DNA of 34,395 nt from a virus, in IMG/VR virus record IMGVR_UViG_3300019776_000249, positions 1 through 34,395 of that record, one strand, 5' to 3'. Position 1 is the first letter of the stretch; every line of letters begins with the position of its first letter. Under the pieces are notes generated by a model that made no database searches, was not told where the DNA came from, and worked only from the letters and a program-made list of their open reading frames with translations. A program made the position numbers and the translations under genes. This document shows positions 1 to 34,395 of the stretch, piece by piece.

Positions 1-21
1 GCGATTTAGGTGCTGTTAGTA
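1..21 (+). repeat. 3' half of an attC-like site at the window edge
   Basis: Bases 1-18 match 33464-33481 at 17 of 18 positions (GCGATTTAGGTGCTGTTA against GCGTTTTAGGTGCTGTTA). That is the 3' (L'-R') side of the complete attC-like palindrome at 33414-33487. The terminal GTTAGTAG (14-21) would be the R' core, cut after its G in a canonical integron. Its exact complement CTACTAAC lies at 403-410, after the gene at 48-395. The 5' half of this site is outside the window. The match is seen directly; the attC interpretation is inferred. Confidence 0.5.
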
Positions 22-47
22 GTCTTTAATTTAAAAAACTTTGAGCA

Positions 48-395
48 ATGGCTAAAAAGAAAATAGAAAAATATGAACCGTTTACTATAACGGAATTTAC
101 AAGCGATTGGTATTATCCAAAAAATATTGAAATTGAGAAAGGATATTGGCATAAATTCGTTTTGACATTAAGATATGGTGGAGGGGTAAACGGGCTCACA
201 AGTTGGTATTTAACCGCAGAAAGGTTTAAAGATGGAAAAATTTGTGAAAGCATTGACTACCCAATTATTTATATAAATGAGGCGGTTAAATGCTATGAGA
301 TATTGCCAATTAAAGAGATAAGGACTTATGACAATACTAATGGATTGCACGAATTTATTAAACGTATTGCGAGCATAGGCAAAAAAGTTTTTTAA
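48..395 (+). CDS. hypothetical protein in a candidate attC-flanked cassette
   Basis: This encodes 115 residues that I do not recognise. The protein is soluble-looking, with a lysine-rich start (MAKKKIEKYEP), many aromatic residues, no signal peptide and no transmembrane segment. A short 26-base leader separates it from the attC-like 3' half at 1-21, and eight bases after its stop comes CTACTAAC, the exact complement of the core at 14-21. That framing suggests a single-gene cassette. It lies upstream of the helicase operon on the same strand. Function unknown. Confidence 0.7.
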   Translation: MAKKKIEKYEPFTITEFTSDWYYPKNIEIEKGYWHKFVLTLRYGGGVNGLTSWYLTAERFKDGKICESIDYPIIYINEAVKCYEILPIKEIRTYDNTNGLHEFIKRIASIGKKVF

Positions 396-514: not shown

Positions 515-712
515 ATGAATACACAAATAAACATAACAGAAACAAACGAAACAAACCTTACTAAACTTAAAACAATAGGTTTAATTAACCTAAAAGATGT
601 TAGTAATAAAGAAAAGTTAGTAAACTTTGCTATTAAAATTGCAACAGAATGTATTGAAAATTTAGACGAGGAAAGTTTAATAAATGTTTGCAATCTTAAA
701 AAAACGTTTTAA
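515..712 (+). CDS. small protein upstream of DnaB
   Basis: This 65-residue hypothetical protein is threonine- and asparagine-rich at the N terminus and looks helical in its C-terminal half. Its stop codon overlaps the dnaB start (TAATG), so it is probably translationally coupled to the helicase. By position it could be a helicase-loader or replication accessory protein, but no motif supports that. The start follows a very AT-rich stretch containing TATATTTA at 503-510, too close to the ATG to be a confident promoter. Confidence 0.7.
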   Translation: MNTQINITETNETNLTKLKTIGLINLKDVSNKEKLVNFAIKIATECIENLDEESLINVCNLKKTF

Positions 713-2124
713 TGATTAACCAAAAAACACCCCCAAACTCAGCCGAATTAGAAGATGCTGTACTTGGTGCTTTGCTTTTAGAAAGTAGCGAATACATACA
801 TACCATAAACTTAATCCTTAAGCCTGAGAGCTTTTACAAAGAGCAAAATAAAATTATTTACAGGGCAATAGTTGAACTTTATAACACAGGAACGGTTATT
901 GATATTTTAACCGTTACACAAAAAATAAAACAATATAACCAATTAGATTTAGTTGGTGGGGCGTTTCATATTTCCTCTTTAACAAATCGCATAGCATCGT
1001 CCGCAAATGTCGAATACCACGCAAGGATAGTTCAACAACATTACCTATTAAGAGAATTAATACGAATAGGCACACAGTTAGAATATAACGCATCTTTACC
1101 CAATGCTGACTGTTTTAGGTTAATTGACACTTTAAACAAGTCTATAAGCGATTTAACAGCGTTTGTAACTACATCTACAAAAAAAATAGACCAAATATTT
1201 ACAGAGTTGGTTAATGAAACAAATGATGTGATTGAAAAAGGATTGCCAACTGGTTTATTAACTGGCTTTGAAAATATTGATAGGGTTACTGGTGGATGGC
1301 AAAGAGGTAATTTAATAATTTTGGCGGCTCGTCCCGGAATGGGTAAAAGCGCATTAGCATTGGCATTTACTAAACATCCTGCAATGGTACTCAATAAAGC
1401 AGTAGCCATATTTAGTTTAGAGATGACGGCTTTGGAGTTGGTTGGTAGGTTGGCAAGTTCAGAAAGTGGTATAGGAGCTACCCAAATTAATCAAAAGAAA
1501 GTTAATCGCTCTCAATTACAGCATATTGTAGGGAATTGCAGTAAGTTAATAAATGCACCCATTTATATTGATGATACAAGCGGATTAACGTTAAATGATT
1601 TAAAGGCTAAGGCAAATAAGTTAAAACATGAATTTAGTATTGAATTAATTATAGTTGATTATTTACAATTATTAAGTGGCTCTGGTGAGGGTAATCGTGA
1701 GCAGGAAATAAGCACAATTAGCAGGGGTTTAAAAACACTTGCTAAGGCTTTAAACATTCCTGTCATAGCTTTATCCCAATTAAGCCGTAAATGTGAGGAG
1801 AGGGCAGATAAACGACCTCAATTAAGTGATTTAAGAGATAGCGGAGCGATTGAGCAAGATGCGGATATGGTTATGTTTATTTGGCGACCTGAGTATTACG
1901 AGCTTTGTCCTAATGGTTATGAGTATGGAAATAGGGTTTTAAATGTCCAAAACTTAGCGATGTTGGATATTGCAAAGGGTAGAGGAATACAAATTTGTGA
2001 ACTGCCCTTAAAGTTTTATGGGGAGTTTATGAGGTTTGATAATTATGATTTGGAGAATAAAATAATAAATATTAAGGACTTTACAGAGCCTTTGAGTAAT
2101 AACGATAATTTGTTAGCATACTAA
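712..2124 (+). CDS. dnaB: replicative DNA helicase, DnaB family
   Basis: At 470 residues this is close to the usual DnaB length. The N-terminal domain opens with the typical PPNSAELEDAVLGALLLE stretch (about residues 7-24). The RecA-like domain has Walker A GMGKS (209-213), Walker B with IIVDYLQL (313-320), SQLSR (355-359) and DLRDSGAIEQDAD (373-385). It is the hexameric 5'-3' helicase that opens the phage fork. It is coupled to the small upstream gene. The replisome-organizer-like gene lies at the other end of the window, so the replication module probably spans the contig ends. The family call is secure. Confidence 0.97.
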   Translation: MINQKTPPNSAELEDAVLGALLLESSEYIHTINLILKPESFYKEQNKIIYRAIVELYNTGTVIDILTVTQKIKQYNQLDLVGGAFHISSLTNRIASSANVEYHARIVQQHYLLRELIRIGTQLEYNASLPNADCFRLIDTLNKSISDLTAFVTTSTKKIDQIFTELVNETNDVIEKGLPTGLLTGFENIDRVTGGWQRGNLIILAARPGMGKSALALAFTKHPAMVLNKAVAIFSLEMTALELVGRLASSESGIGATQINQKKVNRSQLQHIVGNCSKLINAPIYIDDTSGLTLNDLKAKANKLKHEFSIELIIVDYLQLLSGSGEGNREQEISTISRGLKTLAKALNIPVIALSQLSRKCEERADKRPQLSDLRDSGAIEQDADMVMFIWRPEYYELCPNGYEYGNRVLNVQNLAMLDIAKGRGIQICELPLKFYGEFMRFDNYDLENKIINIKDFTEPLSNNDNLLAY

Positions 2125-25546: not shown

Positions 25547-25650
25547 TAATTATGATAAACTATAAAAGTCATGCCTAAAGCTGTAAACAAATCTATTTTA
25601 GTTTGTAACTCGTTTAGGTAATCAAAGTATCTTATTGGTGTTAGTGTCAT
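25546..25650 (-). CDS. 34-aa small ORF coupled to terminase
   Basis: The peptide starts MTLTPIRYFDYLNELQ and ends TFIVYHN. Its ATG overlaps the stop of the glycosyltransferase-methyltransferase gene and its stop overlaps the first base of the terS ATG, so it fits exactly between them. That tight fit supports real translation, perhaps as a coupling peptide. Unrecognised. Confidence 0.5.
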   Translation of the reverse strand: MTLTPIRYFDYLNELQTKIDLFTALGMTFIVYHN

Positions 25651-26981
25651 TACTTTATACGTTTAAAAACTCTAATGTGAACTACTGAGCAAATTTCTTT
25701 ATAATATTCATTTGGTAACAATTCATCTACTGCTTTAGATACGGTTTCAATTCCTTTAAACATTCCATCAGGTAAATTATATTTATTACAACAGTCATCA
25801 ATCACTAAATAACCACCTATTTTAACAAATGAGGAATATTTATAAACGTCTGAATGTGCAACCTCATAAGAATGACCACCATCAATATAAATAACATCCC
25901 ATTCCGTTTTACTTGCTTCAGTTAAAATGGTTTCATCTGTGCTTAAACCTTTAATTATTTTAGGTTGCTTTAGTTTAAATTCTGTGTGTATTTTTGCTAT
26001 ATCCGCTGCGTAATCTGATTCCCAATGACCATCAGTAGAATCTAAAGGGGTAATACCTACAATGTTTGCTTTAGGTGCTAAAGTACGAATTAAGGCTAAT
26101 GTTTGCCCTCTGAATACACCAATCTCTAAAAAGTTAAAATTAGGTTTTTGAGTATCAACTAATAATTTAAACAGCCAGTAGAATGAACGCTCCCCAAACC
26201 CATGTATATTTGCTTCTACATAATCGCGTAGTGCTTTTAGTTTTGGGGTTTTATTAACTTCAATTTCAAATAACTCATTAATATCCTTATGTCTTTCGGG
26301 TGTATCTTTCCAATATGCAGAAAGCTCATTTAACGAATTTGTTACATTAACACTTGCATATATTAAAAATTTATCTAATGAAGTGTGACCATTACCGTGA
26401 ATAAATACAGGTTTTGTTTTAGTTACTGTGTTTAAAATCTTATCACTTAACTCAAAATCGGTATCAGAACAAAATGCAATAGTCTGAAATACATTACAAT
26501 TTGAGTCTAATTTAACATATTGTGGGTATTTTAAAAATAAGTCAGTAAACCATACTTGGTCATTAGTTTCAACTGTTAAAGGGTTTGCATTTACCGCCTC
26601 AATAAAACATTGGGCGTTACAAAACCATCCCCCACCATTAACATATTTAAAAGGTGTTTTACATTCAGGGTATAAAGTAGCTTTATCAGGATGAGGATAA
26701 CACGCTCTTTCTGCACTCATTAAGATTAAATCTTTATCCTTTACCTGAGATAAAGCGTACTCCATTGTATTAACAGAAATGGTATCATAAGCATCTGAAT
26801 AAAAGAAATGAGTAATATCAGGATTAGCTATTAAGTATTCATAAGTCTTAATTATCTTATCCCCAAACCCAAGCCAATCATGTACAATAATATGATAATC
26901 CCATCCATGTTTCTTTAAGGATTGTTGTAATAACTCCGTTTTGGTTATGTCGGAGCAGGTGGTTATTAATTTACATTTCAT
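25650..26981 (-). CDS. glycosyltransferase-methyltransferase fusion protein
   Basis: The protein has 443 residues in two parts. Residues 1 to about 215 resemble PLOD/procollagen-type glycosyltransferases: GFGDKIIKTYEYL (38-50), the metal-site SDAYD (62-66), and YVNGGGWFCNAQCF (113-126). Residues from about 275 form a class I SAM methyltransferase: LEIGVFRGQ (285-293), YIDGGHSYE (365-373) and VIDDCC (393-398). It likely adds and then methylates a sugar. The target, virion glycan, DNA or host surface, cannot be told. Confidence 0.82.
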   Translation of the reverse strand: MKCKLITTCSDITKTELLQQSLKKHGWDYHIIVHDWLGFGDKIIKTYEYLIANPDITHFFYSDAYDTISVNTMEYALSQVKDKDLILMSAERACYPHPDKATLYPECKTPFKYVNGGGWFCNAQCFIEAVNANPLTVETNDQVWFTDLFLKYPQYVKLDSNCNVFQTIAFCSDTDFELSDKILNTVTKTKPVFIHGNGHTSLDKFLIYASVNVTNSLNELSAYWKDTPERHKDINELFEIEVNKTPKLKALRDYVEANIHGFGERSFYWLFKLLVDTQKPNFNFLEIGVFRGQTLALIRTLAPKANIVGITPLDSTDGHWESDYAADIAKIHTEFKLKQPKIIKGLSTDETILTEASKTEWDVIYIDGGHSYEVAHSDVYKYSSFVKIGGYLVIDDCCNKYNLPDGMFKGIETVSKAVDELLPNEYYKEICSVVHIRVFKRIK

Positions 26982-27747
26982 TTGGTTTGTAATATATTGG
27001 TTTAATTCCGTTTAAATAATCATTTACTAAATTAATTACCGTTTGTGTTTGTTCGCCTGAGTGCCTATGCTTCCAGTCTTGGTATGGTGTTTGTCCGTCA
27101 TCTATGTGGTCTATTTCAATTTGAGGTAAAAATACATTTTTAAACCCTGCAATTTGAGAACGCCACGATGCTAAAACATCATCATAACCATAAAGACTTG
27201 GTTGGTAAAGATAACCAATTTTATCTAATAAAGCAAAATTATATAATTGGCACGTTCCGATAATATGTTTAGCATTTTCAACCACTAACCATTTTTCTCC
27301 TGCTGTTTGCGGCAACATTATTAATTCAGATTTATAATCAGGATTATCGTGTTGAGGTTTCTCCCAACAATCCTTACGTTTTAAGCCTATTATACCAATT
27401 TTATTATCTCTGCTTATACACTCCTCTAATAAATCTAACCATCCATCATTATAGATTACTACATCGTCATCCATTTTTAGGCAGTGTTGATTAGGTTTAC
27501 GTTTTGCCCATACTTTATTAATAGCCTCCGCAGTTCCTATGTTTGTAGGATTAAATATTACTTCACTTATAATATCGTTAAACGAATCTAATATTGTTTG
27601 TGTTGTTTCGGTTAAAGCATTAACAGACAACATTAAACTATGCTTACTAAAATCAACAGTTTTTTTTAAACTAACTAAAGTCTTAAATAAACAATCATCC
27701 TTTTTATTTTCGGGTGTTGAGTACACCGCCATACCTATTAAAGCCAT
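26971..27747 (-). CDS. family 2-like glycosyltransferase
   Basis: The 258-residue GT-A fold protein has the nucleotide-sugar Asp triplet in CLKMDDDVVIY (DDD at 93-95), preceded by NPTNIGTAEAINKVW with the typical Asn-Gly spacing. The late part has DDVLASWRSQIAGFK and IDHIDDG, resembling the acceptor/catalytic region. There is no membrane helix. It overlaps both neighbours in the three-gene glycosylation block. Confidence 0.82.
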   Translation of the reverse strand: MALIGMAVYSTPENKKDDCLFKTLVSLKKTVDFSKHSLMLSVNALTETTQTILDSFNDIISEVIFNPTNIGTAEAINKVWAKRKPNQHCLKMDDDVVIYNDGWLDLLEECISRDNKIGIIGLKRKDCWEKPQHDNPDYKSELIMLPQTAGEKWLVVENAKHIIGTCQLYNFALLDKIGYLYQPSLYGYDDVLASWRSQIAGFKNVFLPQIEIDHIDDGQTPYQDWKHRHSGEQTQTVINLVNDYLNGIKPIYYKPNEM

Positions 27748-28859
27748 TCCTTATATAGTTCTAATCTTTTTTTAGTTAACAAATCTAATGAATATTTTTG
27801 GGTATCAATTTTTAATTGTGCCTTTGTATCTTTTAATGAATTAGGGTTTTGATTAATAAACCTTGCCCATTCAAAAAATGTTCGTTTATTTAAGTCGTAT
27901 GAATTTTTATCAGTAGCTAATACAGAGTAAGGCGCACGATGATAACACATAACTCCGCAATCCTTAAACCCAGCCTCAATTAATTTAAGTTCTGATTTAC
28001 AAGAATTAAATTCATTAAACTCTAAAGGGGCTATACATACATCAATAGCATCGTAACAATAGCCAAAATTAAATACATCTATTGTGTTTATACGTCTATA
28101 TGGCTTATCTAAAGCTAATGGCGTTTCAAGTATTTTAAGTTCATGCGAGTAATCAGGATAGTATTTAGCCAATGTTTTATGATTATCCGTCAACATATTT
28201 TCATAGCCGATGTAAATACTTTCTTTTTTATATTCAGCATTAAAACCACATAAGACCATTTGTATATTGCCTGCTAACTTAGCATCATAGAACGCTTTTT
28301 GTACGTCTTTATGTATTTGTAATAAATCAAAGTAATGAGTGCTACCACCTGTAAAACCATAGCGAATAAATTTAGACTCTGATTTATGTGGTTTCCAACT
28401 TTCATCCTCAACATCAATACCGTTTTCAATTATGTAAACATTTTTATTATGAGCCTTAATTTTTTCTGCTAATATTTCGGTTGTTGTAATTACAAAATAT
28501 GCACGTTCTATTGATTTAATTATAGTTTCTGAATAGTTATTAGTTTTATAATCCTCATACGCTATATGATTTTCAGGTAAATACCAGTAATCATCAACAT
28601 CTATACCATACTTAATACCAAATAAATCTAACTTATCACAGTATAAATGATTCAAAGTTCTTGAAAATATTACTAAATTAAATTGTTTAAAAAAATCATC
28701 ATCTAACCCCGCATCATTCATTAATGCTTGTGTAAATTGAATCTCCGGGTTAAGTCTGTTTAATACTTTATGCGGCTTATATAAACGATGATATGCAACA
28801 GCATTAACAACCGCTTGACCATTTTTAAATGTAAAATCTGATATTAAAAGAATTTTCAA
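27738..28859 (-). CDS. GT-B type glycosyltransferase (family 4-like)
   Basis: This 373-residue protein starts at a TTG (MKILLISDFTF) that overlaps the previous stop as TTGA. It has an N-terminal Rossmann-like beginning, IENGIDVEDESWKPH in the middle, and a C-terminal donor-site region CIAPLEFNEFNSCKSELKLIEAG with the Glu-Ala-Gly motif of GT-B enzymes. Third enzyme of the glycosylation block. The sugar and acceptor are unknown. Confidence 0.72.
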   Translation of the reverse strand: MKILLISDFTFKNGQAVVNAVAYHRLYKPHKVLNRLNPEIQFTQALMNDAGLDDDFFKQFNLVIFSRTLNHLYCDKLDLFGIKYGIDVDDYWYLPENHIAYEDYKTNNYSETIIKSIERAYFVITTTEILAEKIKAHNKNVYIIENGIDVEDESWKPHKSESKFIRYGFTGGSTHYFDLLQIHKDVQKAFYDAKLAGNIQMVLCGFNAEYKKESIYIGYENMLTDNHKTLAKYYPDYSHELKILETPLALDKPYRRINTIDVFNFGYCYDAIDVCIAPLEFNEFNSCKSELKLIEAGFKDCGVMCYHRAPYSVLATDKNSYDLNKRTFFEWARFINQNPNSLKDTKAQLKIDTQKYSLDLLTKKRLELYKEWL

Positions 28860-32680: not shown

Positions 32681-32782
32681 ATGAGAAATTTAAAAAACAT
32701 TCCCGAAATAACATTGCCAATAGTAGCAACCGCTACAAAGGGTTCAGCCTTTGTTAAAGTAGGGATATTTTTTTATGGCTGA
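32681..32782 (+). CDS. 33-aa leader-type ORF overlapping the replisome organizer
   Basis: The peptide runs MRNLKNIPEITLPIVA, then TATKGSAFVKVGIFFYG. Its stop lies inside the first codons of the next gene (ATGGCTGA), so the two would be coupled. The same stretch holds a hairpin (GTAGC-AACC-GCTAC) and an outer pairing AACCCTT (32673-32679) with AAGGGTT further on. It may be a small phage protein or a leader peptide. Confidence 0.45.
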   Translation: MRNLKNIPEITLPIVATATKGSAFVKVGIFFYG

Positions 32783-33422
32783 AAATAAAAAAGGTTTTGT
32801 GCTTTATGCTGACCAAAAACATATTTTTGATAAATTAACCGATGGAGAGGCCGGTAAATTAATTAAGCATATTTTTAAATATGTTAATGATGAAAACCCA
32901 ATAATGGATGATAGGTTTTTGGATATGGCTTTTGAGCCTATAAAGTTACAGTTAAAACGGGACTTAAAAAAATATAACGAAATTAAGTTAAAACGCTCTG
33001 AAATTGGTAAACTTGGTGGAATAAAAAGCGGAGAGGTAAGAAAGCAAAACGAAGCAAACGAAGCAAATGCTTCAAAGTTGAAGCAAAACGAAGCAAACGA
33101 AGCAGTAATAGTAACAGTAAATGATACAGTAAATGATACAGTAAATGTAAAAGATAAATTAATAAATAGTATAGATGTTCGCAAATTAAAATTTGCTGAC
33201 ACTCTAAAACCTTTTTTAGAAACTTATGGTAAAGACTTACTAAACGAATTTTATAAATACTGGACAGAGCCAAATAGGTCAAATACGAGATTTAGAATGG
33301 AATTACAAAAAACTTGGAGTTTAGAACGCAGGTTAGAAACTTGGGCAAGGAACGATAAAAACTTTAACTTAAACAAAACAAACGTAGAACAGCCAAAGAA
33401 AAGACATCAGCCGTTGGGGTAA
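32775..33422 (+). CDS. replisome-organizer-like protein with DUF6291-type N terminus
   Basis: The protein has 215 residues. The N-terminal 75 or so (KGFVLYADQKHIFDKLTDGE, then LIKHIFKYVNDENP) resemble DUF6291 domains; a basic low-complexity linker follows with KQNEANEA repeated and VNDTVNDTVNV; the C-terminal part (LNEFYKYWTEPN, then RRLETWARNDKNF) is the DnaB-loader-like end of phage replication initiators. The stop TAA lies inside the attC-like arm GGGGTAAC. It probably opens the origin and loads DnaB. Confidence 0.7.
   Translation: MAENKKGFVLYADQKHIFDKLTDGEAGKLIKHIFKYVNDENPIMDDRFLDMAFEPIKLQLKRDLKKYNEIKLKRSEIGKLGGIKSGEVRKQNEANEANASKLKQNEANEAVIVTVNDTVNDTVNVKDKLINSIDVRKLKFADTLKPFLETYGKDLLNEFYKYWTEPNRSNTRFRMELQKTWSLERRLETWARNDKNFNLNKTNVEQPKKRHQPLG
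33042..33147 (+). repeat. iteron-like repeats inside the replisome-organizer gene
   Basis: A 24-base sequence is repeated exactly at 33042-33065 and 33081-33104, 39 bp apart; it contains GAAGCAAACGAAGCA. Then ACAGTAAATGAT occurs in tandem at 33114-33125 and 33126-33137, with ten more bases of the unit at 33138-33147. The following sequence is very AT-rich. Iterons plus an AT-rich tract inside an initiator gene is the layout of the lambda origin. A low-complexity linker could also explain it. Confidence 0.5.
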
Positions 33423-33487
33423 CGTTTTGCGGCTAAATGCTCGGTTTGTTTTTTCACAAACTGGCGTTTTAGGTGCTGTTACCCCTT
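33414..33487. repeat. complete attC-like palindromic site
   Basis: Outer arms GGGGTAAC (33416-33423) and GTTACCCC (33478-33485) are perfect complements. Inside, CTAAA (33433-33437) pairs with TTTAG (33468-33472) and GC (33439-33440) with GC (33464-33465), leaving unpaired bases. The centre has the hairpin GTTTGT/ACAAAC (33444-33449 and 33456-33461) with a 6-base loop. Conserved outer arms, unpaired spacers, inner arms and a terminal stem match integron attC architecture, and 70 bp is in its usual range. The core is GTTACCC, not the usual GTTRRRY. No T-run follows, so it is not a simple terminator. Confidence 0.6.
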
Positions 33488-33505
33488 GTTGCGGTTACGG
33501 AGTGT

Positions 33506-33584
33506 TAAATTTGTTAAATCTTTGGCTATTTGATTAAATAATTGAAAAAACATTTGGAAAATCAAAAAAGCCGATGTATATTTA
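33506..33584 (+). promoter_or_regulatory. candidate promoters inside the cassette
   Basis: Two Bacteroidota-type elements are present: TAAATTTG at 33506-33513, and TTTG at 33553-33556 followed after 20 bases by TATATTTA at 33577-33584. The second has good spacing but lies only four bases before the chosen ATG, so its transcript would be nearly leaderless or start later. The first would give an ordinary leader. Low confidence for each. Confidence 0.35.
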
Positions 33585-33588
33585 CGCC

Positions 33589-33891
33589 ATGAAAACAACA
33601 CAACTAACAATCGAAAACTTAAAAGCTCGCAAAAGCTACATCATTGCTAAAATAGCAAAATTGGGAATGGCTGATAGAACAGCCGCCTTCATGGGTGTTA
33701 TGAAAATGGAAGTTGAAATGGGCTGCGAAAAAACTATATATGAGTTATTAATGGAGGTATATCACTCGATGCGTACATCTTCACGCAAAACTACTAAAGT
33801 AGCAGAAGGGAGAGCAAGAGTATCAGAGGCTACTGGTGTAGAGCAAATTTCTTGGGGCGAACAAAAATTTGGAAAACAACATAACTTTTAA
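33589..33891 (+). CDS. hypothetical cassette protein
   Basis: I take MKTTQLTIENLKARKSYIIA at 33589 (100 residues); an earlier in-frame ATG at 33574 lies inside the promoter-like element. The protein is helical in its first 65 residues and basic/polar later (SSRKTTKVAEGRARVSEATG). Not recognised. First gene of the candidate cassette that begins at 33479. Confidence 0.65.
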   Translation: MKTTQLTIENLKARKSYIIAKIAKLGMADRTAAFMGVMKMEVEMGCEKTIYELLMEVYHSMRTSSRKTTKVAEGRARVSEATGVEQISWGEQKFGKQHNF

Positions 33892-33902
33892 TAATCAAAA
33901 CA

Positions 33903-34154
33903 ATGAAAACAACAATGAAAACAACAATTAAAATCGAAAAATGGAATACCACTTCTGAATTATCAGGAAAATTCGGGTGCTTTGGCAGATTTGGCCATGC
34001 GAAACAAATAATTGCATCCAAAGGAACAATTGGAGAAGAAGATTATGAGCCTTACCATGAAGAACTTTTGCTTTTTCATAATCAAGAAAAAGCTGTAAAA
34101 TACGCGGAGACAAACGGATATCATACTGTTATTCATTATGAAAAAGCAGATTAA
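33903..34154 (+). CDS. hypothetical cassette protein
   Basis: An 83-residue protein beginning MKTTMKTTIKIEKWNTTSEL, with Gly/Phe-rich and acidic segments and no membrane helix. Its first residues (MKTT) echo those of the previous gene. Overlaps the next gene by 17 bases in another frame. Unrecognised. Confidence 0.6.
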   Translation: MKTTMKTTIKIEKWNTTSELSGKFGCFGRFGHAKQIIASKGTIGEEDYEPYHEELLLFHNQEKAVKYAETNGYHTVIHYEKAD

Positions 34155-34335
34155 GCACGGCGGGGCACGTCCCCGTTCTGGTCGCAAGCCGGTCGAAGAC
34201 CCGAAAGAGGGGATTACAGTTTATATCCAAAAGTCCATCATTGAGTCGAACGGCGGTAAAGATGCCTGTCGTGATGCAATGATTGAGTTCCTGTCCGCAA
34301 GGGCTAATCGGTCGCAGTCCCGCAATAAGGGGTAA
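34138..34335 (+). CDS. ribbon-helix-helix-like small DNA-binding protein
   Basis: The 65-residue protein has a basic, Gly/Arg/Pro-rich start (KHGGARPRSGRKPVEDPKEG), a short beta-like stretch (ITVYIQKS) and two helices (GGKDACRDAMIEFLSAR). This follows the pattern of short RHH-like proteins. The gene is clearly GC-richer than the rest of the window, suggesting a different origin. The stop TAA falls within the GGGGTAAC arm of the second attC-like half-site, as seen in the replisome gene. Confidence 0.65.
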   Translation: MKKQIKHGGARPRSGRKPVEDPKEGITVYIQKSIIESNGGKDACRDAMIEFLSARANRSQSRNKG

Positions 34336-34395
34336 CGTTTTCGGGCTTGGCGAAGGCGGGGATTTTAACCACAAAAGTTTAATAGAATGACAGAA
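34327..34395 (+). repeat. 5' half of a second attC-like site at the window edge
   Basis: GGGGTAACGTTTT at 34329-34341 is identical to 33416-33428, the 5' side of the complete site, and is followed by CGGGCTTGGCGAAGG where the first site has GCGGCTAAATGC. Its outer ten bases AAGGGGTAAC (34327-34336) are the exact complement of GTTACCCCTT (33478-33487), the start of this same cassette, and a better match than the first site's own arm. The 3' half lies beyond the window. Confidence 0.55.

Follow-up and report, generated by a model that had tools for sequence, protein, structure and literature searches.

Chromosomal integrons and superintegrons, for example those of Vibrio and Treponema, are arrays in which cassettes with hairpin sites number in the hundreds and one end lies close to a tyrosine recombinase gene; integrons are usually detected with models of the classical sites. 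The arrays considered here are alike in build, but the core of their sites is mostly GTT[A/G]NNNG, their recombinase lacks the IntI insert, and the array extends on the downstream side of the recombinase gene instead of diverging from it, the phage versions being reversed in polarity. In a 2022 survey with IntegronFinder 2.0, only In0 elements were recorded for Bacteroidetes proper, and then one complete integron, in Salinibacter ruber (PMC9024848).

In phages, attC sites and CALINs (attC clusters lacking an integrase) were published in 2023, including those of Polaribacter phage P12002L, the attC2 of which is recombined by IntI1 (Qi et al. 2023, PMC9892861), so that cassette sites in a phage, which the first-pass annotation had considered unusual, are not without precedent. 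Like the locus described here, these phage CALINs combine attC-type sites lacking a nearby integrase with DNA methyltransferase cargo, and P12002L contains members of the present site family, as found with covariance model R2 (see below). The published work differs in its classical GTTRRRY framework and covers neither the crossover side, the inverted polarity and the start codons in loops, nor phage-borne recombinases of the present type or cassette loss between isolates. We found no description of this site class, of the polarity flip or of an active phage-borne array in the open-access literature exclusive of preprints. In the following we explore a site that very probably serves a gene cassette as its attC-type site, within the replication module of a Bacteroidota phage.

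The cassette locus after the organizer gene

The window, i.e. the whole stretch of 34,395 nucleotides analysed, is a linear, unclosed virus record encoding terminase subunits, a portal protein, an endolysin, DnaB, a YqaJ exonuclease and a DUF6291 organizer-like protein. Its coding sequences include no Phage_integrase domain, in agreement with the first-pass annotation, which had seen no integrase. The features of the locus are as follows.

33416 to 33485, minus strand: site 1, a complete attC-type hairpin, defined by sequence, fold, covariance model R2 and orientation from relatives
33421 to 33423: AAC triplet, the putative crossover, from same-cassette pairs and Freya junctions in relatives
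33423 to 34335: complete cassette of 913 bp (site 1 hairpin and three ORFs), by the unit definition from relatives and by GC content
33574 to 33891, plus strand: cassette ORF, 105 aa, relatives not found
33903 to 34154, plus strand: cassette ORF, 83 aa, family not found
34138 to 34335, plus strand: cassette ORF, 65 aa, its stop TAA being part of the site 2 TAAC
34329 to 34395, minus strand: site 2, cut by the contig end, its left arm identical in 79 stretches of viral contigs
1 to 22, minus strand: right half of a third site, cut by the contig start, matching the site 1 right half
48 to 395, plus strand: ORF, 115 aa, the presumed gene of the last cassette
399 to 410: ATTGCTACTAAC, the presumed array end, fitting the family cassette-end consensus (flank profiles)
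712 to 2124, plus strand: dnaB helicase gene, which follows the organizer directly in nine related loci
32775 to 33422, plus strand: DUF6291 replication-organizer-like gene, its stop TAA (33420-33422) being part of the site 1 TAAC

Site 1 is bounded by TAAC (33420-33423) and GTTA (33478-33481) with complementary GGGG/CCCC flanks, and consists of outer arms GGGGTAAC (33416-33423) and GTTACCCC (33478-33485), inner arms CTAAA/TTTAG and the terminal hairpin TCGGTTTG(TTTTTTCA)CAAACTGG, every part of the palindrome previously named thus being present in its place. The architecture is that of an attC site, namely an imperfect palindrome with R and L box pairs, unpaired spacers and a variable terminal stem-loop, and the AAC and the L stem are intact. 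The core, GTTACCC, fits neither GTTRRRY nor RYYYAAC, and the outer flanks deviate from the cassette consensus in missing T at -7 and G at +4. In folding predictions for single-stranded DNA, the plus strand of site 1 reaches -19.4 kcal/mol (z -4.03; none of 200 shuffled sequences equally stable) and the minus strand only -11.8 kcal/mol (z -1.26); in a family-wide folding run the values were -17.7 for the plus and -9.6 for the other strand. One strand thus folds much better, in line with the first-pass annotation, the reading of which needs correction on one point: with the crossover at the TAAC side, the minus strand gives the direction of the attC, and the predicted fold favours the plus strand, its bottom strand.

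The partial copies noted earlier are real, since positions 34329-34395 repeat GGGGTAACGTTTT and the window opens with the right half of a third site in its initial 22 bases, GCGATTTAGGTGCTGTTAGTAG; hence each contig end falls within an attC-type site. The loop of site 2 is of the start-codon-carrying type (ATGACAGAA). Beyond the presumed array end, ATTGCTACTAAC, follow one small ORF and then dnaB, and from this gene order we infer that the two contig ends belong together. The best explanation is that, with the ends joined as inferred, the stretch from organizer to dnaB comprises one complete cassette, a second of which only the start is present and a third of which only the end is. By the yardstick of a CALIN, it offers one complete and two truncated sites and no Phage_integrase domain on an open contig. 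The cassette has a GC content of 39%, as against 31% for the remainder of the window, and both ORFs upstream of sites (the organizer and the 65-aa ORF) stop at the TAA of TAAC. No relatives of three cassette ORFs of the window (the 105-aa, 65-aa and 115-aa ORFs) turned up in the viral contigs searched. Where the window holds the cassette, nine related loci pass directly from organizer to dnaB, so that gene content at this junction does vary among related phages, as the first-pass annotation had proposed to check.

Some further observations concern the surroundings of the locus. At the presumed array end, TAACTACCTAATAAGACTAAC (407-427) loosely resembles the sequence preceding phage recombinase genes and is possibly, judged from this resemblance, a relic of an attI that has no recombinase. 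Within the organizer gene, two exact 24-bp copies of AAGCAAAACGAAGCAAACGAAGCA lie 39 bp apart (33042-33104); relatives (e.g. L081, L099) have repeats like them (KQNEANEA), and those of the window could be origin iterons inside the gene. Elsewhere, at 25650-28859, three consecutive minus-strand ORFs (373, 258 and 443 aa) have no family assigned and look by eye like glycosyltransferases and a methyltransferase.

A covarying family of sites

Searches with site 1 itself were of little help, as Rfam contained no match at gathering score, the exact site-1 pattern had zero matches in viral contigs, and blastn yielded nothing useful in phages and only weak chance matches in plasmids. The left arm of site 2, which occurs in 79 stretches of viral contigs, led to a family with the consensus TAACG-TTTT-CGGG-C-TTGGCGAAG-[stem-loop]-TTTTGCCAA-A-CCCG-T-GTTANNNGC. 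Different genes follow each family copy in the viral contigs, and the same site architecture is present in Bacteroidota chromosomes. The stems covary: in alignment A1 there were 46 two-sided cells compared to 16.8 in shuffled alignments, and in alignment A2, which comprises 104 distinct sites and, being fitted to the structure, leans toward pairing, there were 412 compared to 109, with 96.7% of cells paired. A structural detector reported 232 sites in real viral loci and 4 in mononucleotide-shuffled ones. The three bases outside TAAC/GTTA, on the other hand, are complementary no more than chance would have it (0.330 against 0.337; in a second set, 0.346 against 0.318), and since the stems covary and these flanks are not complementary, the left and right flanks are independent of each other, as expected if they originate from different cassettes.

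Because the family was found through the arm of site 2, site 1 serves as an independent test of it. With a first, too narrow covariance model, R1, site 1 did not stand out from the background (E 0.16), and this model was replaced by model R2, built from the wider family and without the window sequence. R2 ranks site 1 first in the window with 23.8 bits and a rough and modest E of 0.0044, the next match having an E of 1.7. Closer cousins of site 1 (GCAG-CTAAA ... TTTAG-GTGC-T-GTTA) occur in three viral loci (L194, L196, L197). Of the 104 family cores, 8 are GTTRRRY, 86 are GTT[A/G]NNNG and 4 are RYYYAAC, which bears out the earlier suggestion that a core departing from GTTRRRY marks a different class of site. 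The strand equivalent to the window's plus strand, i.e. the attC bottom strand, folds better in 80/88 family sites and in 81/112 sites of the chromosome considered below.

It is thus close to certain that site 1 belongs to a covarying attC-type family of Bacteroidota phage contigs and chromosomes, a large family with recombinases nearby. Family membership, covariation and the R2 match uphold the original identification: site 1 is a genuine cassette site of the attC type, and its class, which is non-classical, is linked to Bacteroidota.

Crossover side and mobile unit

The direction in which the cassettes move can be read from the complete chromosome CP058707.1, a MAG of Bacteroidota bacterium SSA2 (G017), in which an array with about 342 sites in one orientation and 1 in the opposite orientation extends over ~507 kb (about 3475742-3982497; L159-L185), the recombinase gene being situated ~3.3 kb beyond the last site. 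To our knowledge, this array is among the larger cassette arrays known. Among 784 pairs of near-identical cassettes in this array, 634 have in common the hairpin that precedes the gene in the TAACG reading but not the one that follows it, 42 share both, and the reverse pattern, in which only the hairpin after the gene is shared, does not occur (0/784); the pairs are not mutually independent, yet the direction is one-sided. Followed position by position, identity switches within AACG, such that base 0 (T/C) tracks the upstream unit and the bases from 5 on track the downstream unit. In viral contigs, the hairpin before the gene is common to 17/20 same-gene pairs, and of the mere 4 pairs that test the opposite direction 1 shows sharing. 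The crossover side is alike in chromosomal and viral cassettes as far as the viral pairs show.

Together, the pair counts and the switch within AACG place the crossover, of the G|TT type and within the AAC triplet, on the strand opposite to the TAACG reading, so that in these relatives the hairpin travels with its cassette. A crossover at the GTTA side, which was our first reading, is ruled out by the count of 634 to 0. Applied to site 1, a crossover at the TAAC side would put the attC on the minus strand and would make the mobile unit the hairpin together with the genes after it (33423-34335); the plus strand of the window, on which the fold is more stable, would then be the bottom strand.

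Gene polarity and start codons in the hairpin

The orientation of genes relative to the hairpin distinguishes phages from chromosomes. Chromosomal cassette genes end at their site and point in its direction, as in classical attC sites (185:14 in CP058707.1; 25:0 in other genomes), whereas in viral contigs and in the window the polarity is reversed (106:2 in viral cassettes, with 43 contigs exclusively one way; 4:0 in P12002L). Of 171 upstream ORFs at viral sites, 64 stop exactly at the TAA of TAAC. At 68/234 viral sites, an ORF begins at a start codon within the hairpin, reads across the arm and continues for at least 60 codons past GTTA, methyltransferase genes being among these loop-started ORFs. 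Such ORFs gain an N-terminal peptide, e.g. ...FAKPVLGAV (loci L002-L080, e.g. L009, L010, L013, L027, L067).

Recombinases at the arrays

When nine chromosomal contigs were fetched by their best TIGR02249-like matches, family sites were found in eight, mostly starting within a few kb of the recombinase gene and on its 3' side. The enzymes linked to arrays have in common with IntI (TIGR02249; PDB 2a3v, IntI4) and with Xer the tyrosine recombinase fold and the catalytic motifs, which most of them carry as judged by pattern, and the closest PDB sequences are an archaeal Xer and IntI4. They are nonetheless not IntI, as they fall below the TIGR02249 cut-off, which was exceeded in 0/17 genomes, and lack the IntI-specific insert, residues matching IntI2 178-205 and 220-231 being absent. 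A tree of the recombinases leaves the relation of phage, chromosomal and IntI enzymes without resolution.

Related enzymes are also encoded at the array end in four phage records (G018, G019, G023, G044). Among the viral contigs, L067 is certainly a phage, as a portal protein (E 4e-93), a large terminase (E 5e-148), a methyltransferase cassette, a recombinase and an array are all located within 9 kb. The 169-kb, phage-classed record IMGVR_UViG_3300043411_001575 (G018) carries 40 sites at 77769-116491 with the recombinase 0.8 kb past the last; its terminase was not found with the single family tried. Ahead of the recombinase start, at a distance of at most about 65 bp, L067, L029 and G023 have TAAC or CAAC followed by a stretch resembling TATATGTA, at the position of which Freya (see below) and G018 are more divergent; we offer this arrangement as a candidate attI, as a lead only.

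A related enzyme was encountered on the Acinetobacter plasmid p34AB (L218, 3052-5120), where a tyrosine recombinase beside tet(X3) shares 47% identity with a recombinase from a chromosomal array, groups with such a recombinase in the tree, and is accompanied by TAACA after the tet(X3) gene. No complete family site was found at this locus, and tet(X3) may, by these sequence resemblances, once have been a Bacteroidota cassette.

Cassette loss and gain in Freya isolates

In the isolates of Polaribacter phage Freya (L212, L219-L224), a phage not closely related to that of the window, family sites adjoin a phage recombinase. Seven isolates were compared after rotation to the recombinase, and in their first 41 kb they deviate from Freya_1 at 0-4 bases. 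Relative to Freya_10, however, five isolates lack 4942, 4100, 3198, 902 and 307 bp, respectively. All five junctions fall on the TAAC side and read AAC (one of them CAAC), and four of the deletions share one fixed endpoint, GCT-AAC-ACCCC, ~50 bp before the recombinase start. These losses are exact cassette excisions and the decisive observation for the mobility of the family. Freya_6 possesses a 472-bp unit at the fixed point that is absent from the other isolates compared, an apparent insertion at the attI-like site.

The paper describing Freya gives genome sizes of 44.0-48.9 kb, takes the integrase to suggest a temperate lifestyle, and makes no mention of integrons or cassettes (PMC8776804). 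The gene annotated as integrase adjoins a cassette array which varies among otherwise nearly identical isolates, and the temperate reading may need revision.

How the site may operate

From these relatives we can outline how site 1 might operate. Single-stranded phage DNA arising during replication would first fold at the site, and a Xer/IntI-like tyrosine recombinase would then act on the folded strand, the plus strand of the window being the attC bottom strand. This enzyme could be supplied by a host integron, by another or companion phage, or by a gene in an unassembled gap. Exchange inside AAC (33421-33423) with an attI-like or other site would let a cassette enter or leave, the mobile unit comprising the hairpin and the following genes and ending at the AAC in the site after them, and phage transcription would run through the array along the direction of the cassette genes. 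Folding of the single strand in vivo is presumed, and the copy of site 1 in the window's phage is likely to be active.

More generally, we lean towards the view that Bacteroidota phages run an integron class of their own, with a Xer-like enzyme devoid of the IntI insert and an AAC-containing attI-like site upstream of its own gene. Its cassettes would be of inverted polarity, the attC hairpin forming their 5' leader and often providing the start codon; phages without a recombinase, such as that of the window, would carry and exchange such cassettes, and host chromosomes would hold mirror-image arrays of hundreds. Against our explanation of the window count its lack of a recombinase, its one complete site, the deviating outer flanks of that site, the open contig and the modest model E; no second genotype of the window's phage with other cassette content was found.

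The same features could mean that site 1 is a relic, once mobile and now fixed, with no recombinase at hand and with flanks that have drifted. The absent recombinase, the atypical outer flanks, the single complete site and the modest model score would all accord with this, but AAC and L stem are intact, the fold is strong, and the next site along belongs to a very common type. Moreover, a recombinase was likewise absent in 27/31 array-bearing viral records searched, and for this reason its absence is no mark of a dead site. We regard fixation as a possible but unlikely state of site 1.

It appears improbable that site 1 is a classical integron attC, captured out of the chromosome of a host, which a canonical IntI mobilises: the G|TT crossover and the recombination by IntI1 of an attC from P12002L (PMC9892861), a phage in which R2 finds sites, speak for this, but GTTRRRY cores are rare in the family, the array-linked recombinases fall below the TIGR02249 cut-off without the IntI insert, and the polarity of phage cassette genes is opposite to the chromosomal one.

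Least probable is that the organizer gene ends in a conserved operator or transcription terminator, a notion raised by the first-pass annotation against its own identification and favoured by the frequency of terminating hairpins at gene ends and by a consensus scan that flagged a stem with a weak T tail (33441-33464), since the T-rich stretch is paired within the longer palindrome, relatives with organizer and dnaB directly adjoining lack the palindrome at the same junction, the flanks are decoupled exactly at the arms, and the family travels with genes. Palindrome-free relatives and the internal T stretch rule out termination or operator activity as a sole function; weak termination may occur as a side effect.

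Significance

The preferred reading of site 1 as a mobile cassette site of a non-classical class connects the window to a system on two scales: one Bacteroidota chromosome has about 340 sites in a ~500-kb array, and in phage contigs the arrays comprise as many as 40 sites. Sites of this family let Bacteroidota phages gain and lose whole genes as swappable cassettes, and existing cultured phage isolates allow the exchange of cassettes to be tracked directly. The putative mechanism, with its folded strand, AAC crossover, reversed polarity and loop start codon, is immediately testable, and would offer the phages a modular swapping of DNA methyltransferases and unknown genes.
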